Source of the DNA: Streptomyces sp. SID12488
Lineage (GTDB): Bacteria; Actinomycetota; Actinomycetes; Streptomycetales; Streptomycetaceae
Direction: 5' to 3'
NCBI RefSeq assembly: GCF_010548275.1
Contig: NZ_JAAGLT010000001.1
Span: 62,001 to 126,000 of the forward strand
DNA length: 64,000 nt
Shown here: piece after piece, positions 2,514 to 17,183 of the stretch
Layout of the letters: each line of letters starts with the position of its first letter
How positions within the stretch are numbered: the first letter of the stretch is position 1
The notes under the pieces: model-generated
What the model saw: only the letters and a program-made list of their open reading frames with translations
Databases searched by the model: none
Told to the model about the DNA's origin: nothing
Program-made: the position numbers and the translations under genes

Positions 2514-4670
2514 ATGGAGAACTCCGTGACGCCCACGCACTGCCCGTACTGCGCCCTGCAGTGCGGTATGAACCTCACGCCGGCAGCAGGCGGGGGCGTC
2601 ACGGTCACCGAGCGCGTCGATTTCCCGGTCAACCGGGGCGCCCTGTGCGGCAAGGGGCGCACCGCACCCGCCCTGCTGTCACCGGCGCTGCGGCTGACCG
2701 AGCCGCTCGTCCGGCGTGACGGGGTTCTCGTGCCCGCCTCCTGGGAGGAGGCGCTGGACCGGGTCGCCGAGGGACTGACCCGCACGCGTACGGAGCATGG
2801 CCCGGACGCGTGCGGTGTCTTCGGCGGGGGTGGGCTGACGAACGAGAAGGCCTACGCGCTGGGGAAGTTCGCGCGGGTCGTTCTCGGGACCTCGCAGATC
2901 GACTACAACGGGCGTTTCTGCATGTCGTCCGCCGCCGCTGCCGGGAACAAGGCCTTCGGGATGGACCGGGGGCTGCCCTTCCCGATGGAGGACATTCCCA
3001 AGACCGGGTGCGTCATCCTCGTCGGCTCCAATCTCGCAGAGACGATGCCGCCCGCCCTCCGCTATCTCACCGAACTCAGGGAGAACGGGGGAACGTTGAT
3101 CGTCATCGATCCGCGTCGGACCCGTACCGCCGAGCAGGCCGATCTGCATCTCGCGCCGCGTCCCGGCACCGATCTCGCCCTCGCCCTGGGCCTGTTGCAC
3201 CTGGTCGTGTCCCAGGGGCGCACCGACGAGGCGTTCATCGAGGAGCGGACGAGCGGCTGGGAGGAGACCCGGGCGGCGGCGATGGCCCACTGGCCGGAGT
3301 ACGTGGAGCGGATCACCGGGGTGCCCGTGCCGCAGCTCCGGGAGGCCGTGCGGATGTTCTGCGAGCCGGCCAACGCGATGGTGCTCACCGCGCGTGGACC
3401 CGAGCAGCAGTCCAAGGGGACCGACACGGTGAGCGCGTGGATCAACCTGTGCCTGGCTACCGGGCGTTCGGGGCGGCCGTACTCCGGATACGGGTGTCTG
3501 ACCGGGCAGGGCAACGGGCAGGGCGGGCGGGAACACGGCCAGAAGGCCGACCAGTTGCCCGGCTACCGCAAACTGACCGACCCGGAGGCGCGGCGCCATG
3601 TGGCCGGCGTGTGGGGCGTCGACCCGGACTCGTTGCCCGGACCCGGGCTGAGCGCGTACGAGCTCCTCGACGCGCTGGGCTCCGACATCCACTCCCTGCT
3701 GCTGATGGGGTCCAACCCGGTGGTGTCCGCGCCTCGCGCCGGGCACATCCAACAGCGCCTGGAATCCCTGGACTTCCTCGCCGTCGCGGATGTCGTGCTG
3801 TCCGAGACGGCCGCGCTTGCCGATGTCGTCCTGCCCGTGACCCAGTGGGCGGAGGAGACCGGTACGACCACCAATCTGGAAGGCCGGGTGCTGCTGCGCC
3901 GGCAGGCCGTCGCTCCCCCGGACGGGGTCCGCAGCGATCTGTACGTTCTGCATCAACTCGCCGCGCGCGCAGGGGTGGAGAAGGGGTTTCCGGTCGACCC
4001 CGAGGAGGTCTTCGAGGAGTTGCGCCGGGCCAGCGCGGGCGGGATCGCCGACTACTCGGGGATCACCTACCGGCGGCTCGCCGAGGAGAACGGCGTCTTC
4101 TGGCCCTGCCCGGCGCAGGACGACCAGTCGGACGAGCAGCAGCACGATCCGCGGCACCCGCAACGACACGAGCACGGGCACGACGACCAGGCGTTGGCAG
4201 CGCCGCATCCCGGTTCCCCCCGACTGTTCCTCGACCGATTCGCGACCGAGGACGGGCGGGCCCGGTTCGCGCCGGTGACGTACCGGCCGATCGCCGAGGA
4301 GCCGGACGCCGAGTACCCGGTGCTGCTGACCACCGGACGGGTCGTGGCCCAGTACCAGTCCGGGGCCCAGACCCGGCGGGTCGACGAGCTGAACGCCGCC
4401 GCGCCCGGGCCGTTCGTGGAGCTGCATCCCCGGCTGGCCGCGCGGCTGGGAGCCGAGGAAGGGGATGTCATCGCCGTCGTGTCCCGGCGCGGGCGGGCGG
4501 TGGCGCCGGCGCGGATCACGACCTCGATCCGCCCCGACACCGTCTTCATGCCCTTCCACTGGCCGGGCGAGGGCCGGGCCAACACGCTGACGAATCCGGC
4601 GCTCGACCCGACCTCACGGATGCCGGAGTTCAAGGCGTGCGCGGTACGGCTGGAGACCGTACGCCCTTGA
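2514..4670 (+). CDS. nasA: assimilatory nitrate reductase catalytic subunit
   Basis: 718-residue molybdopterin oxidoreductase reducing nitrate to nitrite in the cytoplasm. The N-terminus holds the [4Fe-4S] ligands Cys10, Cys13, Cys17 and Cys45 (HCPYCALQCGM...GALCGKG). Mo-bis-MGD domain motifs follow, including NGRFCMSSAAAAGNKAFGMD and GYGCLTGQGNGQGGREHGQK, and the C-terminal dinucleotide-binding domain contains TTGRVVAQYQSGAQTRR. There is no Tat signal and no fused FAD or BFD domain, so a separate electron donor is needed. Residues ~531-562 form a His/Asp/Gln-rich linker that I do not associate with the core fold. The start is the ATG at 2514, 28 bp after a GlnR-like box; no Shine-Dalgarno is evident, which fits a very short leader or leaderless mRNA. 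Functional partner: the nirB-nirD operon at 29.3-33.5 kb. Confidence 0.95.
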   Translation: MENSVTPTHCPYCALQCGMNLTPAAGGGVTVTERVDFPVNRGALCGKGRTAPALLSPALRLTEPLVRRDGVLVPASWEEALDRVAEGLTRTRTEHGPDACGVFGGGGLTNEKAYALGKFARVVLGTSQIDYNGRFCMSSAAAAGNKAFGMDRGLPFPMEDIPKTGCVILVGSNLAETMPPALRYLTELRENGGTLIVIDPRRTRTAEQADLHLAPRPGTDLALALGLLHLVVSQGRTDEAFIEERTSGWEETRAAAMAHWPEYVERITGVPVPQLREAVRMFCEPANAMVLTARGPEQQSKGTDTVSAWINLCLATGRSGRPYSGYGCLTGQGNGQGGREHGQKADQLPGYRKLTDPEARRHVAGVWGVDPDSLPGPGLSAYELLDALGSDIHSLLLMGSNPVVSAPRAGHIQQRLESLDFLAVADVVLSETAALADVVLPVTQWAEETGTTTNLEGRVLLRRQAVAPPDGVRSDLYVLHQLAARAGVEKGFPVDPEEVFEELRRASAGGIADYSGITYRRLAEENGVFWPCPAQDDQSDEQQHDPRHPQRHEHGHDDQALAAPHPGSPRLFLDRFATEDGRARFAPVTYRPIAEEPDAEYPVLLTTGRVVAQYQSGAQTRRVDELNAAAPGPFVELHPRLAARLGAEEGDVIAVVSRRGRAVAPARITTSIRPDTVFMPFHWPGEGRANTLTNPALDPTSRMPEFKACAVRLETVRP

Positions 4671-4697: not shown

Positions 4698-5888
4698 CTA
4701 CCAGGTGACCGGGAGGGTGCGTACGCCGTGGACCGCGCGGCCCTCGTGGGCGTTCACCTCGGCCGGGGCCGTCAGTCGTAGGCCCGGCAGGCGGCGGAAC
4801 AGGGTGGGCAGGGCGATCTGGAGTTCGGCGCGGGCGAGGGACTGGCCGAGGCAGTTGTGCAGGCCGTGGCTGAACGTCAGGTGGTGCTGGGTCTCCCGGG
4901 TGATGTCGAAGGTGTCCGGGTCCGTGAACACGCTGGGGTCCCGGTTGGCGGCCTGGAGCGCGACGACGACACCTTCTCCGGCCCGTACGGTGACGCCGCC
5001 GATCTCCACGTCCTGCGTGGCGATGCGCCGCATCCCGACGTGAACGACCGTGAGATAGCGCAGGAGTTCCTCGACTGCTCCTGGCACCAGCTCCGGATCG
5101 GCCTGCAGCTCCGCCAGTTGGGCGGGGTGGGACAGCAGAGTCACCACGCCGAGCGACAGCATGCTCGCCGTCGTCTCGTGCCCCGCGATGAGCAGCATCA
5201 CGGCAAGTCCGGCCGCCTCGGGGGCGGTTGCCTCCCCGGTGGCCACCCGTTCGGCCGTGAGCCTGCTCAGCAGGTCGTCGCCGGGGTCGGCGGTCTTGGC
5301 GGCTAGCAGCTCCATGAGGTACCCGAACAGCGCTCCCCAGCCCGCCCGCATCGCCTCGGGCCCGTCGGTCACCGTGGCGAACGCGGCGGCGTGGCGATGG
5401 ATGAACTCCCGGTCCGCGTAGGGCACTCCGAGGAGTTCGCAGATGACGAGCAGCGGCAGCGGCAGGGTGAATTGCTCCACGAGATCGGCGTCGGGCCCCT
5501 TGGCCACCAGGTCGTCGATGAGGCGGTCGGTCAACTGCTGGATGGACGGGCGCAGTTCTTCGGCGCGTCGGAAGGTGAAGTCCGGGATCAGCATCCGGCG
5601 CAGCCGGGTGTGCTCGGGCGCGTCCATGGCGAAGAGCTGGCCGGGGGTGGGTGGTGGCGGGGTCGGCTGGAGGCCGGGGAATCCCTCCCGGCGGTTCTCG
5701 GCCCTGAAGCGGGCGTCCGCCAGGACGGCACGGGCGTCCTCGTGCCGGGTGACCAGCCAGGGGGTGTTGCCGCCCCAGAGCGCGATACGGCTGATCCGGC
5801 CCTGCTCACGCAGCGGCGTGAACTCGGCGGGCGGGTCGAGCAGGGCGGTGCGCCGCATGGGCAGCGGGGGGAACGTGGTCTCGGACAT
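4698..5888 (-). CDS. cytochrome P450
   Basis: 396-residue soluble bacterial P450 monooxygenase. Diagnostic segments: the I-helix oxygen-activation motif AGHETTASM, the K-helix ExxR in EELLRYL, and the haem-binding loop FSHGLHNCLGQSLARAE with the axial thiolate Cys346. The size and N-terminus (MSETTFPPLPMRR) resemble CYP105-type actinobacterial P450s, but the family is not assigned. The ATG at 5886-5888 is chosen over a longer frame to 5990, which would read through the intergenic repeats. It is the last gene of the minus-strand Ebo-like run and is separated from eboF by 135 bp containing a hairpin and tandem repeats. A tailoring oxidation of the Ebo product is an attractive inference; no ferredoxin gene is adjacent. 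Confidence 0.93.
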   Translation of the reverse strand: MSETTFPPLPMRRTALLDPPAEFTPLREQGRISRIALWGGNTPWLVTRHEDARAVLADARFRAENRREGFPGLQPTPPPPTPGQLFAMDAPEHTRLRRMLIPDFTFRRAEELRPSIQQLTDRLIDDLVAKGPDADLVEQFTLPLPLLVICELLGVPYADREFIHRHAAAFATVTDGPEAMRAGWGALFGYLMELLAAKTADPGDDLLSRLTAERVATGEATAPEAAGLAVMLLIAGHETTASMLSLGVVTLLSHPAQLAELQADPELVPGAVEELLRYLTVVHVGMRRIATQDVEIGGVTVRAGEGVVVALQAANRDPSVFTDPDTFDITRETQHHLTFSHGLHNCLGQSLARAELQIALPTLFRRLPGLRLTAPAEVNAHEGRAVHGVRTLPVTW

Positions 5889-5944
5889 GGTCGGTGTCTC
5901 CGCGTGGTGGGGGGCGGGGGCGTGGTCGGTTCCTGCGGCACGGT

Positions 5945-5979
5945 CGGTACCCAGGCGCAGGCGGTGTGCCTGGGTACCG
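5945..5979. terminator. hairpin between eboF-like gene and P450
   Basis: Perfect 12-bp arms CGGTACCCAGGC (5945-5956) and GCCTGGGTACCG (5968-5979) enclose an 11-nt loop. It lies just past the eboF stop codon and 57 bp before the P450 start. It could terminate or attenuate transcription entering the P450 gene. Confidence 0.55.
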
Positions 5980-5982
5980 GCC

Positions 5983-6036
5983 GGTGCCAAGGCACGGTCG
6001 GGTGCCTAGGCTTGGTCGGGTGCCTAGGCTTGGTCG
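5983..6036. repeat. three tandem 18-bp repeats overlapping the eboF stop codon
   Basis: Three 18-bp units in tandem: GGTGCCAAGGCACGGTCG (5983-6000), then two identical GGTGCCTAGGCTTGGTCG units (6001-6018, 6019-6036). The third unit contains the eboF stop codon (6024-6026), so the gene's last codons are part of the repeat. Confidence 0.85.
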
Positions 6037-7436
6037 GTGGGCGGGGTTGCGGACAGGCCGGCGAGTTTCAGGAGCAGGCCCTTGACGTCGGTGGCGGCGA
6101 TGGCCTCGCTGCTGTGCTCCGGTTCCGAGCACAGCAGTACAGGGCCGTGGTCGGGGTCGCCCGGGAGGCGGCCGTGGCTGCCGCGGACGCCCGAGGGGTC
6201 CAGCGGGACTGTCTGCATGCGGTAGCGGAACCCCAGCTTTTTGCGGGCGAGTTGACCGGCCGCATGCAGTTTCACCGACGGGTTGGTGTCGTCCCACAGC
6301 AGTTCGGCGGGGTCGTAGCCGGGCTTGCGGTGGATCTCGACCTGGCGGGCGAAGTCGGGGGCGCGGTCGTCGTCGAGCCAGTAGTAGTACGTGAACCAGG
6401 CGTCGGCGTCCGCCACCGCGACCAGCTCTCCCGAACGCTCGTGGTCCAGGCCCTGGACCGCCTTGCCCATCTCGCCCAACACCTGTTCCACACCGTCGAG
6501 TTCCCCGAGGATCTTGGCGACCTCGCGTACGTCGGCCGGGTCCCGGACGTAGACGTGCGCCACCTGGTGGTCGGCGACGGCGAAGGCGCGGGAGGTCCAG
6601 GGGTCGAGGTACTCCATGCCGTCCTGGGTGTACACCTCCAGCAGTCCGGCCCGGCGCAGGGCCCGGTTGATGTCCACGGGGCGGGAGACCGGGGTGATGC
6701 CGTACTCGCTCAGCGCCACCACAGTGGCGCCGGCGGCGAGGAAGTGGTCGATCAACGGGCGCAGGGCGTCGTCGAGTTGGCGGGCTGCGCGGATCGACGC
6801 GTCGGACTGCGGGCCGGAGCGCTGGGGTTCGTAGTCCATCTCCGGGATGTAGACCAGGGTCAGGTCGGGGTCGTGTTCGTCGAAGATCTGGCGGGCGGCG
6901 CCCAGGATCCACTGGGTGGAGGGCATGCCGGCGTTCGGGCCCCAGTAGGTGAACAGGGGGAAGGGGCCGAGGCGTTCGGTGAGTTCGTCGTGCAGGGAGG
7001 GCGGCCAGGTGTAGCAGTCGGGTTCCTTGCGGCCGTCGGAGTAGTAGATCGGGCGCGGGGTCACCGTCCAGTCGACGTCGGCGCCCATGGCGTACCACCA
7101 GCAGATGTTGGCGACCGTGTAGCCGGGGAGCCGCTTTCGGGCCGCGTCCCAGATCTTCTCGCCGCCGACGAGGGCGTTGTGCTGCCGCCAGAGGAGTACC
7201 TCACCGAGGTCGCGGAAGTACCAGCCGTTGGCCACCGCGCCGTGCGTGGAGGGGAGTTCGCCGGTGAGGAAGGTCGACTGGGCGGTGCAGGTGACGGCGG
7301 GGAGCGTGGTGCCGAGGGTGGCCCGGAATCCGCGGTCGCCGAGGGCGGCGACGGCGGGCATGTGGCGCAGGAGGGCGGGGGTGAGACCGACGATGTCAAG
7401 GACGACGAGTCGGTTGCTGTTCGGGGTTTCGGTCAT
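6024..7436 (-). CDS. alkaline-phosphatase-superfamily phosphodiesterase (EboF-like)
   Basis: 470-residue member of the nucleotide pyrophosphatase/phosphodiesterase branch of the alkaline phosphatase superfamily. It opens with RLVVLDIVGLTPALL, holding the first metal-site Asp (D14), then LPAVTCTAQSTFLTGELPS with the likely nucleophilic Thr49; later VYIPEMDYEPQR and VVALSEYGITPV supply further metal-site candidates. No signal peptide is seen, so it is probably cytoplasmic. I prefer the ATG at 7436, which has AAGGAA 6 nt upstream; an ATG at 7460 overlaps the EboE stop in an ATGA and is possible. In Ebo clusters the sixth gene is of this family; its substrate is unknown. Confidence 0.82.
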   Translation of the reverse strand: MTETPNSNRLVVLDIVGLTPALLRHMPAVAALGDRGFRATLGTTLPAVTCTAQSTFLTGELPSTHGAVANGWYFRDLGEVLLWRQHNALVGGEKIWDAARKRLPGYTVANICWWYAMGADVDWTVTPRPIYYSDGRKEPDCYTWPPSLHDELTERLGPFPLFTYWGPNAGMPSTQWILGAARQIFDEHDPDLTLVYIPEMDYEPQRSGPQSDASIRAARQLDDALRPLIDHFLAAGATVVALSEYGITPVSRPVDINRALRRAGLLEVYTQDGMEYLDPWTSRAFAVADHQVAHVYVRDPADVREVAKILGELDGVEQVLGEMGKAVQGLDHERSGELVAVADADAWFTYYYWLDDDRAPDFARQVEIHRKPGYDPAELLWDDTNPSVKLHAAGQLARKKLGFRYRMQTVPLDPSGVRGSHGRLPGDPDHGPVLLCSEPEHSSEAIAATDVKGLLLKLAGLSATPPTDQA

Positions 7437-7456
7437 GAGGGGTTCCTTGCGGCCGG

Positions 7457-8626
7457 TCATGAGTGGTCTTCTTTGAGGCCCAGGCCGGTCAACCGGTCGC
7501 GGGCCCAGGTGAGTTCGGCGGCTATGCCGGCGGCGAGGTCGGCGGGCGGGCGGGGCAGGACGGACCAGGTGTAGGTCTCGACCTCGATGTGGTCGCAGAC
7601 GGCGCTCGGGCCGCCGAGAAGTCCGGCGAGGACGGTGGTGAGTTGGTCGGCGGTGGTGCGGAGGGGTGGTTCCGGCTCGGCGTGCAGCGGGGCGTGGAAG
7701 TGTGTGCGCCAGGGTCTGTCGACGCCGGCCGCCGGAAGCCCGCCGCCGTCCAGGGCGTCCGGCAGGTCGTCCACGCCGACCACCGTGCCGTCGTCGTTGA
7801 CCGTTCGCGCCTGGTGCAGGAACCGTCGTTCGGCCAGTTCGCGCAGGGCTGTGCGGGCGCGCGGGTCGGTCGGGTCGGGGGCCTCGACCGCGCAGGACGC
7901 CTGGAGCTTGACGATCGGCAGACCCGCGTCGGCGAGCCGTCCGAGGGCCTCGCCGGGCTCCTCGAACTGGACGGCGAGATGGCAGGCGTCCAGACAGACG
8001 CCGAGATAGTCGCGGTCCACGTCGGCGAACTCCCGCACCGCCTGGGTGGTGGTCTCCACGACGCACCCCGGTTCCGGTTCGAAGCCGACTCGGATACGGC
8101 GGCCGGTGTCCGACTCCAACTCTGCCAACCCTGAGGCCAGTTGGTCCAGGGCGCGGCGGGCGGTGTCCGCGCGCTCCGTCGGCCAGGGGGTGCGCCAGGC
8201 GAGCGGGAGGGTGGAGACGCTGCCGCGTCGGGCGTCGTCGGGGAGGAGGGCGGCGAGGACGCGGGCGCAGTCGAGGGTGTAGTCGAGGCGGGCCGGGTCG
8301 GCCCAGTCCGGGAGGTAGACGTCCTTCTTGACGACCTCCCGGTGGAACCCCTCGTACGGGAAGGCGTTGAGGGTGACGGTCTCCAGGCCGCGCGCCGCGA
8401 GTTCGCGCTTGAGTGTCGTCAACGCCCTTTCGTCGGCGGCGAGTTCGGTGACGGCGGTGCGGGCCAGCCAGAGGCCGATCCCGAGCCTGCCGACGCCGAG
8501 CCGTTGCCGTACGGGTTCGGCGTGGGCGCCGAGCTGGGCGATGACCCCGGCGAGGTCCTCGGCCTGGTGGACGTTGCTGCAGTACGCGAGGTGGACGGGG
8601 GTGCCGTCGGGGTGGAGAAAGCGCAC
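7457..8626 (-). CDS. EboE-like TIM-barrel protein
   Basis: 389-residue protein of the xylose isomerase/AP-endonuclease-like TIM-barrel superfamily, matching EboE by its N-terminal HLAYCSNVHQAEDLAGVIAQ and the following GIGLWLARTA segment. Candidate metal ligands are in GFEPEPGCVVET, LDACHLAVQFE and KLQASC. A lone catalytic assignment is not possible. The GTG at 8626 is used because GGGGGAGAGTGA precedes it and it starts 8 bp after the EboB stop. Ebo proteins were described, from memory, as needed for export or traffic of secondary metabolites such as scytonemin monomers; a chemical role has not been shown. Tight spacing with eboB and eboF marks one operon. Confidence 0.8.
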   Translation of the reverse strand: MRFLHPDGTPVHLAYCSNVHQAEDLAGVIAQLGAHAEPVRQRLGVGRLGIGLWLARTAVTELAADERALTTLKRELAARGLETVTLNAFPYEGFHREVVKKDVYLPDWADPARLDYTLDCARVLAALLPDDARRGSVSTLPLAWRTPWPTERADTARRALDQLASGLAELESDTGRRIRVGFEPEPGCVVETTTQAVREFADVDRDYLGVCLDACHLAVQFEEPGEALGRLADAGLPIVKLQASCAVEAPDPTDPRARTALRELAERRFLHQARTVNDDGTVVGVDDLPDALDGGGLPAAGVDRPWRTHFHAPLHAEPEPPLRTTADQLTTVLAGLLGGPSAVCDHIEVETYTWSVLPRPPADLAAGIAAELTWARDRLTGLGLKEDHS

Positions 8627-8633
8627 GGTCGGT

Positions 8634-9500
8634 TCACTCTCCCCCGCGCCGGATGGAGTTGCCCTCGAACGACGAGGCCTCGTCGGGCTTCGGCTCACCG
8701 TCCGTGTCGTCCAGGTCGAGGCGCCCGCTCTGGCCGTAGAAGGCGACGGGGTTGCGCCACAGGACGCGGTCGACGTCGTCGTCCGTGAAGCCGTCGGCGA
8801 GCATGGCGTCACCGGTCTTGCGGGTTTTCAGGGGGTCCGAACTGCCCCAGTCCGCCGCCGAGTTGATCAGCACGCGGTCAAGGCCGTGCTCCTGGAGGAT
8901 GCGGACCATCCGGTCCTCGCTCATCTTCGTCTTCGGGTAGACGGAGAACCCGGCCCAGCAGCCGCTGTCGAGGACCATGCCGACCGTCAGCTCGTTCAGG
9001 TGGTCCAGGACGACGAGTTCGGGGGCGATGCCCGACTCACGTACGACGTCCAGGGTGCGCCTGGTCCCGGCCACCTTGTCGCGGTGCGGGGTGTGGACGA
9101 GGGCGGGCAGGCCGTGTTCGACGGCGAGTTGGAGCTGACGGGCGAGCACCTCGTCCTCCGCCTTGGTCATCGAGTCGTAGCCGATCTCGCCGACGGCGAC
9201 GACCCGGTCCTTGGCGAGGTAGCGGGGCAGTTCGTCGAGGACGGGGAGGCAGCGCGGGTCGTTGGCCTCCTTCGGGTTGAGGGCGATCGTGCAGAAGTGC
9301 TGGATACCGAACTGGGCTGCCCGGTAGGGCTCCCAGCCGAGCAGCGAGTCGAAGTAGTCGTAGAAGGTGTCGGGCGAGGTGCGGGGCTGGCCGAGCCAGA
9401 AGGCGGGCTCGACGACGGCCCGGACTCCGGCCTCGTACATCGCCTCGTAGTCGTCGGTGGTGCGGGAGGACATGTGGATGTGGGGGTCGAAGATGCGCAT
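8634..9500 (-). CDS. TatD-like metal-dependent hydrolase (EboB-like)
   Basis: 288-residue amidohydrolase-superfamily protein of TatD type. The N-terminal RIFDPHIHMSSRT gives the HxH metal motif, followed by VVAVGEIGYDS (bridging Glu), ALVHTPHRDK and VVLDHLNE (His ligands) and a C-terminal LINSAADWGSSD (catalytic Asp). The ATG at 9498-9500 begins 2 bp after the EboA stop codon, indicating translational coupling, and excludes the longer Arg-rich frame upstream. Substrate unknown; although TatD proteins are often annotated as DNases, the Ebo context argues for a small-molecule or protein-metabolite role. Confidence 0.84.
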   Translation of the reverse strand: MRIFDPHIHMSSRTTDDYEAMYEAGVRAVVEPAFWLGQPRTSPDTFYDYFDSLLGWEPYRAAQFGIQHFCTIALNPKEANDPRCLPVLDELPRYLAKDRVVAVGEIGYDSMTKAEDEVLARQLQLAVEHGLPALVHTPHRDKVAGTRRTLDVVRESGIAPELVVLDHLNELTVGMVLDSGCWAGFSVYPKTKMSEDRMVRILQEHGLDRVLINSAADWGSSDPLKTRKTGDAMLADGFTDDDVDRVLWRNPVAFYGQSGRLDLDDTDGEPKPDEASSFEGNSIRRGGE

Positions 9501-9502
9501 GA

Positions 9503-10141
9503 TCACCCGGTTTCGTCGGTGCCGGAGGTGGGGGCGGCGGAAGTGGTGAAGGGGTGTACGAGGGGGGCGATGTCCTCGGGTATGGGGCGTCCGGCCGCCG
9601 TCCGCTCGTGGGCGAAGTCGCCGAGCATGCCGGCGAGTTCGGCGTCGGCACGGTCGTCGAGTCCGGCGACTCGGGCGAGCGGGATCTCGCAGAACACGCA
9701 CTTCAGGACGGCCTGGCGGTACTCGTCGGCCGGCAGGTGGGCCGCCGCGTACGGGCCGAGGGCGGCCTCGATCAGCGTGTTGTCGTTACCGCGCAGGGTC
9801 TGGCGTACGAGGTCCAGGAACCGGCCGGTCCCCTCCCGGTCGAGCTGTGGCAACGCCCTTAGGACGGCCCGCTGTTCGGCGGGGTCGCCGTAGCGGTGCA
9901 GCGCTGCCACCTCGTCGGCGAGGGCCTTGTCGCGCAGGGGCAGCGCGGCGAGGAGCAGCACGCGGGCCGCTTCGTCGACGGTCCGGCCGTCGGGCAGCGG
10001 GGCGCGTCCGCAGTGGCGGCGGACAGCCGGGAAGAGGGTGCGGATCGTGGTGGGGGCGGCGGCGACCTCGGCCAGGGCGGTGTCGAGCCAGGCGCGGGCT
10101 TCGGGGGTGAGGGGCAGGGGGGATGTATCGGAAAGCGGCAT
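9503..10141 (-). CDS. EboA-like protein of unknown function
   Basis: 212-residue helical protein without a recognised catalytic motif. The middle is rich in Leu/Ala helices (ARVLLLAALPLRDKALADEV), and the C-terminal third holds QAVLKCVFCEIPLARVAGL and FAHERTAAGRPI, which I associate with the EboA family. It is the first of four closely spaced genes (eboA, eboB, eboE, eboF) and starts at an ATG at 10139-10141 with a weak ribosome-binding site. No function is proposed in the literature I recall beyond membership of the cluster. Confidence 0.75.
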   Translation of the reverse strand: MPLSDTSPLPLTPEARAWLDTALAEVAAAPTTIRTLFPAVRRHCGRAPLPDGRTVDEAARVLLLAALPLRDKALADEVAALHRYGDPAEQRAVLRALPQLDREGTGRFLDLVRQTLRGNDNTLIEAALGPYAAAHLPADEYRQAVLKCVFCEIPLARVAGLDDRADAELAGMLGDFAHERTAAGRPIPEDIAPLVHPFTTSAAPTSGTDETG

Positions 10142-10262
10142 GGCGCGGTTCCAGAAAGGGAGTTGGAGAGGAAGAAAAAAGGGGGCGCGGCAGAGGTTGG
10201 AGAGCGCCGGAAATAGGGATCGCGACGCGAAATTCTCGTGAACGAATGGTGGGGCGGCAGGC

Positions 10263-11111
10263 TCAGGAGGCGAGCAGGCTCCGGGCCTCGGCTCGGCACA
10301 GGAACTCCAGGGAGCTGCGGGCGATGTCGGGGGCGTCCAGAGCGCCGCCCTGGATCTCGACGGACACCAGGCCGCGATGGCCGAGGTCGGTCAGCGCCGC
10401 CAGTACCGGCGGGAAGTCGATCTCACCGGCGCCGAACTCCAGATGCCGGTGGACGCCGCGGACCATGTCCTCGATCTGGACGTTCAGCAGGTGCGGCGCG
10501 GCCAGGTCGACACAGTCGAGCAGCGTCGGCTCCTCCACGCAGTGGGCGTGTCCGATGTCCAGGGTGACGCCGAACAGTTCGTGCCCGCCGACCAGTTCGC
10601 GCAGTCTCAGGCACTTCGCGACCGTGTCGACGAACATGTGCGGCTCGGGTTCGAAGGCCAGCGCGACCCCGTATGCCTCCGCCGTTTCCAGCGCGGCACC
10701 GACGCCTGCGGCCAGCCGCCGCCATGCCTCTGTCTCCGGGATGTCGTCCGGGGCCGGTCCGCTGCACAACTGGACGCTGGGCGAGCCGAGTTCCGCGGCG
10801 ATGCGTACGGCACGCCGCAACAGGTCGACGCGGCGTTCCGGTTGGCCTGACATCAGCGTCGGCTGATGCTTGCCCCAGGGGTCGAGGAAGTAGGGCGCTC
10901 CGGTCTCGACCGTGACGGTCAGCCCGAGCCGCGTCAACTGCTGTCGGACGCGGTCGACCTGGCGGTCCAGGTCGTCGGCGTACGGGTCGAGGTGGTTGTG
11001 GTCGAGGGTGAGGGCCACGCCGTCGTAGCCGAGGTCGGCAAGGATGCCGAGGACGTCGGAGAGGCGGTGGTGGGTGAACCCGTTGGTGCCGTAGCCGAAT
11101 CTCAGGCCCAT
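10263..11111 (-). CDS. sugar phosphate isomerase/epimerase-like TIM barrel in the Ebo-like cluster
   Basis: 282-residue TIM-barrel protein of the xylose isomerase-like AP_endonuc_2 superfamily. Motifs in order: LRFGYGTNGFTHHRL, YDGVALTLDHNH, VQLCSGPAP, LAFEPEPHMFVDT (metal Glu), GVTLDIGHAHC (Asp/His), LLNVQIEDM and LVSVEIQGG (Glu). All ligand positions expected for a divalent-metal isomerase look present. It occupies the place between the prenyltransferase and eboA where I would expect a cyclase (EboD) in the canonical cluster. The ATG at 11111 has GGAGGG upstream. It could supply or rearrange a sugar or cyclitol precursor; this is inference. Confidence 0.8.
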   Translation of the reverse strand: MGLRFGYGTNGFTHHRLSDVLGILADLGYDGVALTLDHNHLDPYADDLDRQVDRVRQQLTRLGLTVTVETGAPYFLDPWGKHQPTLMSGQPERRVDLLRRAVRIAAELGSPSVQLCSGPAPDDIPETEAWRRLAAGVGAALETAEAYGVALAFEPEPHMFVDTVAKCLRLRELVGGHELFGVTLDIGHAHCVEEPTLLDCVDLAAPHLLNVQIEDMVRGVHRHLEFGAGEIDFPPVLAALTDLGHRGLVSVEIQGGALDAPDIARSSLEFLCRAEARSLLAS

Positions 11112-11193
11112 GGCCCGCCCTCCGTCACGTAGTTCACGAGAGGGCTCGACGCACAGCTCGAAGTAGATCTCGAAGCAGGGCTCATGGCATTGC

Positions 11194-12207
11194 TCATGTC
11201 GGGGACACCCGCCTCGCCAGGCGCTGCGCCACCGGGTGCAGGGCACCCAGGAGTGCGGCGGCGACGGGTGCTCCGGCGCGCGCCGTGAGCGCCGCCTGCA
11301 GGGGGACCATGGCGAGGATGCCCGCCCCCACCGCACGCCGTACGGAACTCGCTCCTGGATCGCGTACGGCCCGCGCCTGGGCCCAGCCGTACGTCCCCAG
11401 GTAGGCGAGAACTCCGGCGGAGGCAACGGCTGTTCGGGCGACCTCCGCCCGGGGCAGGGAGCGCCGGGGCGGGAGAACGGCCGGGAGTACGGAAGGCAGC
11501 ACCGTCGACAGCGCCGTGGCCGACGACACGGCGAGCGTCGTGGCCGGCAGCCGCGAGGGCGCGCCGGAGATCTCGTGGCGGCTGAGGGCGGTGATCGTGT
11601 AGGTGTGCACCCCGGTGAGGAGGGCGGGGACGGCGCCTCGAGCGAGCGCGCCTGCCGTGCCACCCCCACCGGCGTGCCACGGGGGGTTGCCGCCGCCGGC
11701 CACCGCGCCCGCCAGTACGTCGAGCGCACGCGCGCCCGCCATCGCCGCCGGGCCGGCCGGAGTCGACTTCAACTTCAGGTCGTACGCCCATATGAGGGCT
11801 GTCAGCGGCAGGGCGACGGCGAGTCCGCGTCGGCCGCCCGACACGGCGGCGAGACCGAGGCCCGCGCCGGTCAGGCTGGTTGCGACGGCCAGCGCGGTCC
11901 GGCGCGGCACCCGGCCGGAGGGCACCGGACGGGCGGGCCGCTCGACCGAGTCGACGGCTGCGTCGGCGTAGTCGTTGAGGGCCATGCCGGCCCAGTAGAG
12001 ACAGACGGAGGACGCCATCGCGCCGGCCGTCCGGGGACCGAGAGGACGGCCCGCCGCGGTCGCGCCCGCCAGGATGTCGCCGGGGACGCTCAGCGCGGCC
12101 GGGGCTCTGACAAGGCTCACCAGATCCGAAAGTGGGGGTAGTTGAAAATTGGTGTGCTGCAGGGGTTGTCGGGAACCGGCGGGGGGAAATGATTTCCGGT
12201 CACTCAT
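11194..12207 (-). CDS. UbiA-type membrane prenyltransferase (EboC-like)
   Basis: 337-residue polytopic protein of the UbiA superfamily, transferring a prenyl chain to an acceptor at the membrane. The first aspartate-rich motif is in YWAGMALNDYADAAVDSVER, followed by RPVPSGRV as in many UbiA members; the second region is YDLKLKSTPAG with a later Asp in ARALDVLAG. About eight hydrophobic segments can be traced. It is the first gene of the Ebo-like run. I recall Streptomyces members labelled SCO3242-family prenyltransferases, found near an inositol-phosphate synthase in the CDA cluster; no such synthase is here. The ATG at 12207 has no good ribosome-binding site. A partly symmetric AT-rich motif (CAATC at 12211, GATTG at 12225) lies just upstream. 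Confidence 0.82.
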   Translation of the reverse strand: MSDRKSFPPAGSRQPLQHTNFQLPPLSDLVSLVRAPAALSVPGDILAGATAAGRPLGPRTAGAMASSVCLYWAGMALNDYADAAVDSVERPARPVPSGRVPRRTALAVATSLTGAGLGLAAVSGGRRGLAVALPLTALIWAYDLKLKSTPAGPAAMAGARALDVLAGAVAGGGNPPWHAGGGGTAGALARGAVPALLTGVHTYTITALSRHEISGAPSRLPATTLAVSSATALSTVLPSVLPAVLPPRRSLPRAEVARTAVASAGVLAYLGTYGWAQARAVRDPGASSVRRAVGAGILAMVPLQAALTARAGAPVAAALLGALHPVAQRLARRVSPT

Positions 12208-12325: not shown

Positions 12326-12754
12326 TCAGTAACGCGCCCGCCAGTCCCCGCCCTTGATCAGCCTCCCGTGCGCCCGCATCCGTGCGGCGACGATCGGGCC
12401 GGCGACGTACACCCAGGCACGTACGGCGCCCCCATCGGCGTCGAGGGTCACCTGCCGCGCCACCCGCTCGTACAGGCTGTGCGGGTCACCCGGTACGCAC
12501 TCCTCCAACTCGTCCAGTTCGGCCAGCAGTTCGTCGTAGGCATCCGGCAGCGCCACGACCAGCTCCCCGTGCACGACTCCGCCGGGTTCCGTCACGGCGT
12601 ACGGGTAGCCGGGCCCGTCGTACAGCACCGCGTCCGCGAGCCGTCCCGGCCGCTCCGACTGCGTACGGCCGCGCAGGAAGTGGTCGTGGTTGGGCTCGCC
12701 TGGACGGAGGGTGCCGTAGACGAAGAACGGGAGTCTCACGTGTCGGTCTCGCAT
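12326..12754 (-). CDS. gamma-glutamylcyclotransferase-fold (GGCT/AIG2) protein
   Basis: 142-residue protein with the GGCT-fold signature PFFVYGTLRPGEPNHDHF at the N-terminus and a central LPDAYDELLAELDELE, where the conserved acidic residue of the family resides. Members either cyclise gamma-glutamyl dipeptides or act on gamma-glutamylamines; which applies is unknown. It follows on the minus strand but is convergent with nothing and is probably monocistronic. An internal GTG seven codons downstream is an alternative start; neither has a strong ribosome-binding site. Confidence 0.8.
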   Translation of the reverse strand: MRDRHVRLPFFVYGTLRPGEPNHDHFLRGRTQSERPGRLADAVLYDGPGYPYAVTEPGGVVHGELVVALPDAYDELLAELDELEECVPGDPHSLYERVARQVTLDADGGAVRAWVYVAGPIVAARMRAHGRLIKGGDWRARY

Positions 12755-12927: not shown

Positions 12928-14550
12928 ATGACCTCCCGTCTCGCCGCGGCCGGTACAGCCGCCACCACCGCCGTCCTGCTGGCCGCCGCACTCTCCCCCA
13001 GCGCAGGCGCGGCCGACAGACCGACCCGCGACACCGCCATCAGGAACTCGGTCACAGCGCTCGTGGACCAGGCCGCCCAGCTGGGCCTGACCTCCGTACA
13101 GGGCACCACAGTCCGGGATGTCGTCATCGACAAGGACGGCAGTCAGCACGTCCGCTATGACCGCACGTACCGCCAACTCCCGGTGCTCGGCGGCGACTTC
13201 GTCGTCCATCTGGCGCCGAGTGGCACCTACCGGAGCGCGAGCCGTGCCACGACCCGCCCGATATCCCTGTCCACGATCAGCCCGTCGGTGTCGGCCCCGA
13301 AGGCAGCCGACCTGGCGGCCTCGGCGCTGCGCGCGGCGAACCGGGGCGAGGCGCTGAAGAAGACAACCTCCAAGCCGCAGCTGGTGGTTGACGCCCTGCA
13401 CGGCGCCCCCAGACTCGCCTGGCAGACAAACGCGGTGGCCCTGGACTCGGTCGGCAACCCCGTCGCCCGGACCGTGCTGACCGACGCGCGCACGGGCGCC
13501 CAGATCGACGCCTGGGACAGCATCGAGACGGCGACGGGCGACGGCCGGTCCCTGTACGGCGGCACAGTCCCGCTGGAGACGACGGTCTCCGGATCGACGT
13601 ACCAGCTGAAGGACCCTACGCGCGGCAACACGTACACGGGCGACGCCGCCAACGGCACTGACCTGTGCATCTTCGGTATCTGCATCGTCCGCGCCCCTGC
13701 CACGCTCTTCACGGACGCGGACAACCACTGGGGCACGGGTGTGACAACGGACCGCTCCTCGGCGGCGGTTGACGCGCAGTACGGCACCGACGAGACCTGG
13801 GACTACTACAAGGACACGTTCGGGCGCAGCGGCATCAAGGGCAACGGGGTCGGCTCGTACAACCGCGTGCACTACGGCAACAGCTACAACAACGCCTTCT
13901 GGGACAACAGTTGCTTCTGCATGACGTACGGCGACGGTGACGGGACGACGTTCGGTCCGCTGGTCTCACTGGACGTGGCCGGCCACGAGATGACGCACGG
14001 CGTGACGTCGTCGACGGCCAACCTGACGTACTCGGGCGAGCCGGGCGGTCTCAACGAGGCGACGTCCGACATCTTCGGCACGTTGGTGGAGTTCAACGCG
14101 GCCAACTCCACCGACCTCGGTGACTACTTGATCGGCGAGAAGATCGTCAAGCCGGGCTTCGGCCGGTCGGCGCTTCGCTACATGGACCAGCCGTCGAAGG
14201 ACAACAACTCGGCCAACTGCTGGAGTTCGGGCGTCGGGAACCTGGACGTGCACTACTCCTCGGGCGTGGCGAACCACTTCGCGTACCTGCTGGCGGAGGG
14301 CAGCGGCGCCAAGATACTCAACGGCGTCAGCTACAACTCCCCCACGTGCAACAACTCGACGGTCGCGGGCATCGGCCGGGCCAAGCTGGGCGCGATCTGG
14401 TACAAGGCGCTGACCACGTACATGACGTCGTCGACGAACTACGCGGGCGCGCGCACCGCCACGCTGAACGCGGCGCGTGATCTGTACGGGACGAGCAGCA
14501 CGGAGTACGCGGCGGTCGGCGCCGCCTGGAGTGCGGTGTCGGTGGGCTGA
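12928..14550 (+). CDS. secreted thermolysin-like neutral metalloprotease (M4)
   Basis: 540-residue preproenzyme. Residues 1-29 are a Sec signal peptide ending near AGAADR; an FTP/PepSY-type propeptide follows (HVRYDRTYRQLPVLGGDFV), then the mature M4 domain. Zinc ligands are in HEMTH (His353, catalytic Glu354, His357) with the third ligand Glu377 in GGLNEATSD. The C-terminal domain includes DVHYSSGVANHFAYLLAEG with the conserved transition-state His. The length is normal for the family and there is no extra C-terminal domain. The ATG at 12928 has AAGGAG 6 nt upstream. A strong hairpin 24 bp after the stop suggests a monocistronic message. Role: extracellular protein degradation. Confidence 0.95.
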   Translation: MTSRLAAAGTAATTAVLLAAALSPSAGAADRPTRDTAIRNSVTALVDQAAQLGLTSVQGTTVRDVVIDKDGSQHVRYDRTYRQLPVLGGDFVVHLAPSGTYRSASRATTRPISLSTISPSVSAPKAADLAASALRAANRGEALKKTTSKPQLVVDALHGAPRLAWQTNAVALDSVGNPVARTVLTDARTGAQIDAWDSIETATGDGRSLYGGTVPLETTVSGSTYQLKDPTRGNTYTGDAANGTDLCIFGICIVRAPATLFTDADNHWGTGVTTDRSSAAVDAQYGTDETWDYYKDTFGRSGIKGNGVGSYNRVHYGNSYNNAFWDNSCFCMTYGDGDGTTFGPLVSLDVAGHEMTHGVTSSTANLTYSGEPGGLNEATSDIFGTLVEFNAANSTDLGDYLIGEKIVKPGFGRSALRYMDQPSKDNNSANCWSSGVGNLDVHYSSGVANHFAYLLAEGSGAKILNGVSYNSPTCNNSTVAGIGRAKLGAIWYKALTTYMTSSTNYAGARTATLNAARDLYGTSSTEYAAVGAAWSAVSVG

Positions 14551-16403: not shown

Positions 16404-17183
16404 TCAGGCGTTGAGTACTTCCAGCGCGGCGGCGTGCACACCCGGCGCGGCGGCGAGGTAGCTCTGGCCGGCCAGTTCCCACGGTTTGCCCTCGAAATCG
16501 GTGACGACGCCGCCGGCCTCCTGGACAAGGAGCACACCTGCCGCGTGGGACCGGACGTTGTCGAACTGCCAGTGCAGGTCCATCCGGCCTGCGGCGACTT
16601 GGGCGAGATGTTGGGTCACCGGTACGGAGATCCGCACATAAAGGGCGGCGTTCGTCATCGCGCTGAAGGCGGAGCCCATCCGCTTGGCGAGCTCGGGGTC
16701 ATGACCCGGCTTGGCCTGGCCGGTCCCGGCCAGTGCGCCGTCCAACGACGTCTTGACCGAGACCCGCAGCCGTACACCGTTGAGAAACGCCCCGCCGCCC
16801 TCGGTCGCGGTGAACATCTCGTCCAGGGCCGGGAAGTAGACCACCGCCAGCACCGGGCGGCCGTCACGGACGAGGCTCACGCCGATGTTCCAGTCGGGCA
16901 TGCCGTGCACGGCGTTGACGTTGCCACCGACCGGGTCGATGAGCCACCACTCGCCCATGGCCAGCGGTCCCGATCCGTGTTCGTCGTTGAGCCAGCCCGC
17001 GCTCGGCAGGGCCTCGGTCAACGCCGGGCGCAACGTGTCGACAACGGCCGCGTCATTGGCCTGGAGGTTCGCGAGCAGTTCGGAGAGCCCGGGCTGACGG
17101 GACTCGGTGGAATAGCGCGTCATCATCCGGGCGCCGGCGTGGCGGACGGCGGCGACGGTGGCGGCAAGCAGTTCCTGACTCAT
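16404..17183 (-). CDS. inositol-monophosphatase-fold protein with substituted metal ligands
   Basis: 259-residue protein clearly of IMPase fold, but key metal-binding residues differ from the family. The canonical WxIDPLDGTxNF motif reads WWLIDPVGGNVNAVHG here (residues 79-94), with Gly86 where the second Asp should be; the C-terminal WDxAAG motif reads RSHAAGVLLVQEAGG, with Ser212 replacing the Asp; GEE is replaced by DEH (67-69). A normal phosphatase mechanism therefore looks impaired. It could be a non-catalytic or re-purposed member. The ATG at 17183 has CAGGAG upstream. It is divergent from a LysR-type gene with a T-N11-A motif in the 55-bp gap, so it is probably that regulator's target. 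Confidence 0.8.
   Translation of the reverse strand: MSQELLAATVAAVRHAGARMMTRYSTESRQPGLSELLANLQANDAAVVDTLRPALTEALPSAGWLNDEHGSGPLAMGEWWLIDPVGGNVNAVHGMPDWNIGVSLVRDGRPVLAVVYFPALDEMFTATEGGGAFLNGVRLRVSVKTSLDGALAGTGQAKPGHDPELAKRMGSAFSAMTNAALYVRISVPVTQHLAQVAAGRMDLHWQFDNVRSHAAGVLLVQEAGGVVTDFEGKPWELAGQSYLAAAPGVHAAALEVLNA

Follow-up and report, generated by a model that had tools for sequence, protein, structure and literature searches.

The 64,000-nucleotide stretch analyzed here (the window), from Streptomyces sp. SID12488 (contig NZ_JAAGLT010000001.1, positions 62,001 to 126,000), carries an ebo-type gene cluster with a UbiA-family prenyltransferase and a cytochrome P450. A preliminary description made from the sequence had noted that EboD, the dehydroquinate-synthase-like cyclase of canonical ebo operons, was not visible and had proposed that an extra TIM barrel takes its place. 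The observation was confirmed and its interpretation was partly supported: what the window cluster misses relative to its relatives is Ino1. Clusters of this form make up a clade (here, the subtype) that lacks Ino1 and mostly carries the P450, and in many subtype genomes a second, Ino1-type cluster has a missing or broken prenyltransferase. We consider it quite possible, if somewhat short of probable, that one pathway is split over the two loci, which would share the prenyltransferase and EboF in trans.

Gene content of the window cluster

The cluster consists of seven co-directional open reading frames (ORFs), all open, on the minus strand within 12207-4698, here in order of transcription:

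11194-12207, minus strand: UbiA-family prenyltransferase of the SCO3242 type, the EboC analogue (NF045897, 357.9 bits; cut-off, 260)
10263-11111, minus strand: TIM2, a xylose-isomerase-like TIM barrel (PF01261, 139.4 bits)
9503-10141, minus strand: EboA (NF035938 EboA_domain, 166.9 bits; cut-off, 50)
8634-9500, minus strand: EboB, a TatD-like metallohydrolase (PF01026, 56.0 bits; cut-off, 27)
7457-8626, minus strand: EboE TIM barrel (NF035939 TIM_EboE, 436.3 bits; cut-off, 250)
6024-7460, minus strand: EboF, PF01663 family with replaced metal ligands (PF01663, 189.7 bits)
4698-5888, minus strand: cytochrome P450 with a heme-cysteine motif at C346 (PF00067, 112.3 bits)

These coordinates agree with the preliminary description, whose call of an ebo-type cluster held: EboA and EboE both scored over the cut-offs of their profiles. 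The prenyltransferase, which starts at an ATG at 12207 (a GTG at 12120 is an alternative), also matched PF01040 (58.8 bits) and fell below the cut-off of the EboC profile NF035940 (97.2 versus 250 bits). EboA likewise fell short of the narrower NF035937 (72.3 bits; cut-off, 320). Residues N49, D50, D53, and D57 of the prenyltransferase (NDxxDxxxD) were kept across both the subtype and the Ino1-type clusters, as were H9, H11, E107, H138, H169, and D219 of EboB, which we take to be the metal site. The eboE and eboF genes overlap by 4 bases, and the P450 starts 135 bases after EboF. Ratios of nonsynonymous to synonymous substitution rates (dN/dS) for all seven genes were 0.06 to 0.38 when compared with loci L168, L170, and L174 (G, C, and L denote genomes, contigs, and locus stretches; the window genome, G000, is 9.6 Mb in 183 contigs). 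Against L090, which has a different P450, the ratio for this gene was 0.52. Low dN/dS and an identical gene order in dozens of Streptomyces loci argue that the genes are not adjacent by chance. We found no TTA codon (bldA control) in the eight genes at 12739-4698, no signal above chance in a promoter and terminator scan, and no plasmid records covering 80 percent of the cluster by megablast.

We compared the window with known systems. The ebo gene set is present in many bacterial phyla and also in algal plastids (PMC5133447). With the canonical operon eboABCDEF (PMC5133447, PMC6282210), the window shares EboA, EboB, EboE, EboF, and a UbiA prenyltransferase; it differs in lacking EboD, in having the TIM barrel and the P450, and in a prenyltransferase of another NCBIfam family. 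From the SCO3242-type Ino1 cluster, which has the same prenyltransferase family and the same order C-TIM2-A-B-E-F, it differs by the absence of Ino1, the presence of the P450, and an EboE in a clade of its own. In Streptomyces coelicolor, the SCO3242 transferase and the SCO3243 myo-inositol phosphate synthase have been counted with the CDA genes (PMC3610822). Ubi-297, an EboC relative, is like the window enzyme a UbiA protein encoded among ebo genes, including those of Saccharomonospora, but it was assayed on aromatic acceptors and described with an EboA-E set (PMC9235831). Actinobacterial EboA has been reported fused to a xylose-isomerase-like domain (PMC5133447). We found no description of Ino1-type or P450-type actinobacterial ebo clusters in searches of the open-access literature.

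Next to the question of a cyclase, PF01761 (DHQ_synthase) had a single match in the whole window genome, on another contig, which we took to be AroB. An EboD hidden elsewhere in the genome was rejected on this single match, and its absence stands as first noted. Extra DHQ_synthase matches occurred in some of 12 genomes, with stronger ones in G014, G049, G063, G068, and G075; scanned pieces of three gave AroB-like matches or none. The G014 match near its subtype cluster (L153) lay in an iron alcohol dehydrogenase-like gene (PF00465) and was not counted as EboD. Ino1 (PF01658) was absent from the window cluster; its two matches in the genome lie on contigs C128 and C101. The Ino1 of the C101 cluster aligned to the Archaeoglobus fulgidus Ino1 structure 1u1i (199 bits, two stretches) and has lysines where 1u1i has K274, K278, K306, and K367, residues important in that enzyme.

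A search of 150 related genomes gave EboE matches in 77 (over the cut-off in 75), and 80 stretches around EboE matches were taken, including two from C101 of the window genome, while the matches in G008, G017, G041, G056, G073, G081, and G086 were left out; genes were called with a codon-usage script. The usual Streptomyces order was a GSDH-type gene, often a ThuA-like gene, an Ino1-like gene, the SCO3242 prenyltransferase, TIM2, A, B, E, F, and a xylose-isomerase-like gene. TIM2 was present in nearly all surveyed clusters and in 98/98 Ino1-type clusters, which makes it a regular part of the ebo clusters of actinobacteria. Ino1 was present in 83 of 90 EboE loci outside the subtype (not including L034, L035, and L036), and the usual predicted cyclase of these clusters is Ino1-like. 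Two or more Ino1 matches were found in 62 of 65 EboE-bearing genomes of the genus (two of the 65 having only a partial EboE below the cut-off) versus 1 of 26 genomes without EboE. Two Streptomyces plasmids have a cluster gene annotated as inositol-3-phosphate synthase. In six ebo clusters on plasmids of other phyla, a gene is annotated as 3-dehydroquinate synthase, adjoining eboE in four and one or two genes off in the rest. Many Ino1-type clusters carry the GSDH-type gene. On the linear plasmid of Streptomyces camelliae (L255:3221-12541), an Ino1-type cluster lies beside a gene annotated as ScyD/ScyE family, which precedes Ino1, and one annotated as aromatic prenyltransferase.

EboF had been described as phosphodiesterase-like. 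Its membership in PF01663 held, while a working two-metal phosphodiesterase is doubtful. We aligned a profile of 22 EboF proteins by sequence, in short stretches, to the Xanthomonas NPP structure 2gsn, whose metal ligands we take to be D54, T90, D210, H214, D257, H258, and H363. Three of these positions were kept (the T that acts as nucleophile, one D, and the final H), whereas V, Q, E, and Y stand at the other four. Residues Q213, E252, and Y253 were present in 155/155 actinobacterial rows and V24 in 150 (two with Ala and three with gaps), and all four residues were found in 6/6 EboFs from EboD-bearing clusters. Thus, four of seven expected ligands appear to be replaced in all cluster types compared. 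An Asp two residues ahead of the V, present in 137/155 rows, might be a substitute ligand, which would weigh against a reading of ligand loss. No solved structure of EboF was found. EboF has been described as homologous to pyrophosphatases or as a putative hydrolase of phosphates (PMC5133447, PMC6282210); the main text of PMC5133447, which describes EboF, does not contain the terms "active site" or "residues." The replaced ligands cast doubt on the phosphodiesterase/pyrophosphatase annotation.

The predicted model of EboA was confident and all-helical, with a mean predicted local distance difference test (pLDDT) score of 93.5. Foldseek gave no match to it at an E value of 0.001. The best VIA-align hits were HEAT-like solenoids (Z, 9.8), below the tool's level for helical proteins, and these matches lie within helical-repeat noise. 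The all-helical model is compatible with the TPR-like suggestion of PMC6282210.

A subtype without Ino1 and with a P450

Eight loci of the first survey (the window, L055, L067, L074, L078, L081, L086, and L090) have the order TIM2-A-B-E-F-P450 and lack Ino1. The prenyltransferase precedes TIM2 in 8/8 by tblastn, although in L078, L081, and L086 gene calling gave a short gene or none. Together with an A-B-E-F cassette in G063, the eight loci formed one clade of the EboE tree (Shimodaira-Hasegawa-like approximate likelihood ratio test [SH-aLRT], 100), in a quick tree built without bootstrapping. When named genomes were scanned with the EboE of these loci, 80 loci were obtained, 58 of which were counted as subtype by at least 68 percent EboE identity to the window; the next loci reached at most 63 percent. 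L235 (58 percent identity; its contig starts inside the cluster) and L247 (the G063 strain) were left out. Since L055, L067, L086, and L090 duplicate four named loci, 62 subtype loci remained after removal.

Ino1 was found in 0 of the 57 subtype loci with at least 1.5 kb upstream. A P450 of the window family followed eboF in 43 of the 53 subtype loci that have 1.3 kb or more of sequence after this gene and was present in 0 of the 90 other EboE loci; for named loci, we required at least 48 percent identity to the eight reference P450s, so that more divergent P450s would escape. The P450 is a recurrent component of the subtype. In five sister loci (L055, L067, L078, L086, and L090), the P450 overlaps EboF by 4 bases.

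The subtype P450s split into two main groups. The rest of the L090 cluster is 89 to 96 percent identical to the window, but its P450 is only 56 percent identical, whereas the window P450 shares 75 percent identity with its counterpart in L074, a more distant locus. The pattern points to an exchange of the P450. The solved relatives closest to the window P450 by profile-type scores include CYP105 enzymes, pentalenic acid synthase (4ubs), and P450-SU1 (2zby).

In G063 (L036:4234-14417, L161), the subtype A-B-E-F cassette lies inside an Ino1-type cluster, giving A-B-E-A-B-E-F-F, and a putative transposase-like gene is found near it.

Directly upstream of the window prenyltransferase is one gene of uncertain membership:

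12326-12739, minus strand: gamma-glutamyl cyclotransferase-like gene (PF06094, 96.1 bits)

In L168, L170, and L173, the prenyltransferase is immediately preceded by a gene of 137 amino acids, and one other gene separates the upstream gene from the prenyltransferase in L172 (176 amino acids) and L174 (138 amino acids); homology of the upstream gene was checked for L090, which is the L172 locus. L055 (283-5119) and many other subtype clusters instead have gamma-glutamyltransferase, IMPase-like, and CrtO-like FAD oxidoreductase genes upstream. An upstream gamma-glutamyltransferase or FAD-oxidoreductase gene was present in 24/57 subtype loci, mostly together with an IMPase-like gene. The window has an IMPase-family gene at 16404-17183, which was rejected as a cluster gene at only about 31 percent identity to the sister-cluster IMPases. 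An M4 metallopeptidase (12928-14550) and a nitrate-reductase-like molybdopterin oxidoreductase (2514-4670) flank the window cluster and are common to L090. Unlike the window, L090 has intradiol-dioxygenase-like and GAF-domain genes at the same chromosomal site (L090:4479-5462 and 12996-13466); the former was not counted as a member, being at most 25 percent similar to that of G014.

Partner clusters and loss of the prenyltransferase

The window genome has three copies of EboE: that of the window, a full copy on C101 beside the second Ino1, and a partial one near the start of C101. The second belongs to a partner Ino1-type cluster (L034:5551-12283) in which Ino1 is directly followed by TIM2, with no prenyltransferase between them. 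This cluster has TIM2-A-B-E and an eboF of about 120 codons, covering 28 percent of the profile. The window prenyltransferase is the only NF045897 match over the cut-off in the genome, the other traces being a 58-bit piece at the C101 edge and a weak UbiA match of 22 bits, and the window EboF is the only full EboF found. At the C101 start (L035:1-3367), we also observed a third, partial cluster with the end of a prenyltransferase, TIM2, A, B, and EboE homology over about 131 residues; it is closest to L235.

The same arrangement of a subtype cluster plus an Ino1 cluster without a prenyltransferase was found in G079 and G049, the latter with a 30-bit remnant. From the 58 named subtype genomes, we then took 42 for closer reading; of the 16 left out, four were first-survey genomes and the rest mostly had short or cut contigs. 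All 42 have Ino1, 38 have at least two copies, and 36 have an ebo-type Ino1. In 19 of these 36, the Ino1 cluster has a missing or broken prenyltransferase (one of them, G159, was judged from a contig end on which TIM2 comes after Ino1), and three of the 19 genomes carry in addition an intact cluster from a different lineage. Four of the 36 have an Ino1-xylose-isomerase-GSDH operon with no ebo core within the stretch read, and one of the four has an intact cluster from a different lineage as well; G183 carries a fifth operon of this kind alongside a cluster without the prenyltransferase. These operons are at L263, L265, L272, L273, and L284, with the subtype elsewhere in those genomes.

Among 99 Ino1-type clusters with a usable EboE, an intact prenyltransferase was missing from 21 of 40 in subtype genomes versus 0 of 59 elsewhere, 47 of the 59 being from the genus of the window (Fisher's exact test, 8e-11, a value that ignores kinship). 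One of the 21 clusters (L286) retains the prenyltransferase in broken pieces. Profile coverage of TIM2, EboA, EboB, EboE, and Ino1 was 80 percent or more in 98/98 Ino1-type clusters. EboF, in contrast, fell below 80 percent coverage in 8 of the 21 clusters without an intact prenyltransferase versus 0 of the 77 others. In nine pairs of prenyltransferase-less clusters, dN/dS was 0.16 to 0.41 for Ino1, 0.10 to 0.20 for EboB, and 0.08 to 0.26 for EboE, and that of an EboF remnant was 0.68.

One pathway or two

The simplest account of these patterns is that the prenyltransferase and EboF are exchangeable between clusters, that TIM2, EboA, EboB, and EboE each stay with a pathway or complex of their own, and that the partner provides the cyclase. 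The Ino1-family cyclase of the partner cluster would make a cyclitol phosphate, and the membrane prenyltransferase of the window, helped by EboF, would prenylate this compound or one derived from it. Each cluster would retain its own EboA, EboB, EboE, and TIM2 for processing or for complexes specific to its pathway. Oxidation of the prenyl or ring part by the CYP105-like P450 would then yield a variant lipid, which may be a secondary metabolite or may carry another metabolite through the membrane. An oxidized, prenylated cyclitol, as first proposed, fits with the Ino1 context, and a role in synthesis or trafficking is in line with the published ebo proposals (PMC5133447, PMC6282210). In its fullest form, the account has the Ino1 cluster drop its own copies where the P450-bearing cluster without a cyclase is present, EboF acting as a catalytically altered prenyltransferase partner rather than a two-metal phosphodiesterase, and the P450 bringing variety to a prenylated cyclitol lipid; that all of this holds together is rather unlikely.

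Several results weigh against a shared pathway. On the side of gene content, 13 of the 42 named genomes have Ino1 clusters that all retain the prenyltransferase (one, G162, was assembled from two contig ends), six have only a housekeeping Ino1 or an unrelated second copy and no cluster-type Ino1, and G014 and G068, two of the eight first-survey genomes, also lack a cluster-type Ino1. We took the match near 127 bits to be the housekeeping Ino1, putatively the mycothiol one. Because of such genomes, the partner cluster is not indispensable, and the housekeeping Ino1 could be the source of the cyclase there. The P450 is missing from 10 of the 53 subtype loci (L181, L187, L189, L200, L204, L206, L209, L211, L215, and L243). 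The third prenyltransferase piece of the window genome (C101:7-249) ends at a contig edge, so that a further copy in an assembly gap is possible, and G079, one of three prenyltransferase-less cases of the first survey, is 78 percent complete. The loss is also structured by kinship: its tree needs nine changes, only two of which are forced by well-supported branches, and a test of five independent pairs, one or two of them informative, went in the expected direction but was not significant. In the prenyltransferase-less clusters, TIM2 (dN/dS, 0.14 to 0.57) and EboA (0.28 to 0.59) are less constrained. Since the loci were found via EboE or Ino1, retention of both is partly a matter of sample choice. 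Finally, with 8 of 21 lacking a full eboF, that of the window genome included, the prenyltransferase-less clusters could be on their way out.

This last point leads to a second explanation, namely, two independent ebo pathways, in which the subtype substrate (an aromatic acid, for example) needs no cyclase of its own and the prenyltransferase-less Ino1 clusters are decaying. We regard this as somewhat improbable. The short or missing eboF genes and the subtype genomes without any cluster-type Ino1 speak for it, and the related Ubi-297 farnesylates 8-hydroxyquinoline-2-carboxylic acid, a quinoline, in vitro (PMC9235831). However, TIM2, EboA, EboB, EboE, and Ino1 are near full length in all 21 of these clusters with dN/dS below 0.6, and no prenyltransferase loss was seen outside subtype genomes.

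With much the same chance of being correct, a third explanation overlaps with the shared pathway: the cluster is a metabolite-export device, as has been proposed for the scytonemin monomer in Nostoc, with a lipid carrier made by EboC and a cargo, encoded at another site, that is tailored by the P450. In Nostoc, the five mutants with single ebo genes deleted retain the scytonemin monomer in the cytoplasm (PMC6282210), and both the GSDH-type gene of many Ino1-type clusters and the ScyD/ScyE-annotated gene before Ino1 on the S. camelliae plasmid are in agreement with such a role. This role was demonstrated for the cyanobacterial cluster only, and no cargo pathway was recognized among the few neighbors examined beside the window cluster. 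That the extra TIM barrel functionally replaces EboD, as the preliminary description had it from the presence of the one and the absence of the other, is very improbable, because TIM2 accompanies the Ino1 cyclase in nearly all surveyed clusters of that type and the xylose-isomerase-like TIM barrel fold family is not known for sugar-phosphate cyclases.

For the shared pathway, the pattern of gene loss predicts which parts are shareable (the prenyltransferase and EboF) and which are not (TIM2, EboA, EboB, and EboE). Judging from the actinobacterial form, an unrelated cyclase, Ino1-like in place of EboD, may carry out the ring-forming step, and a cyclitol, rather than one cyclase chemistry, would thus be the common theme of ebo clusters.

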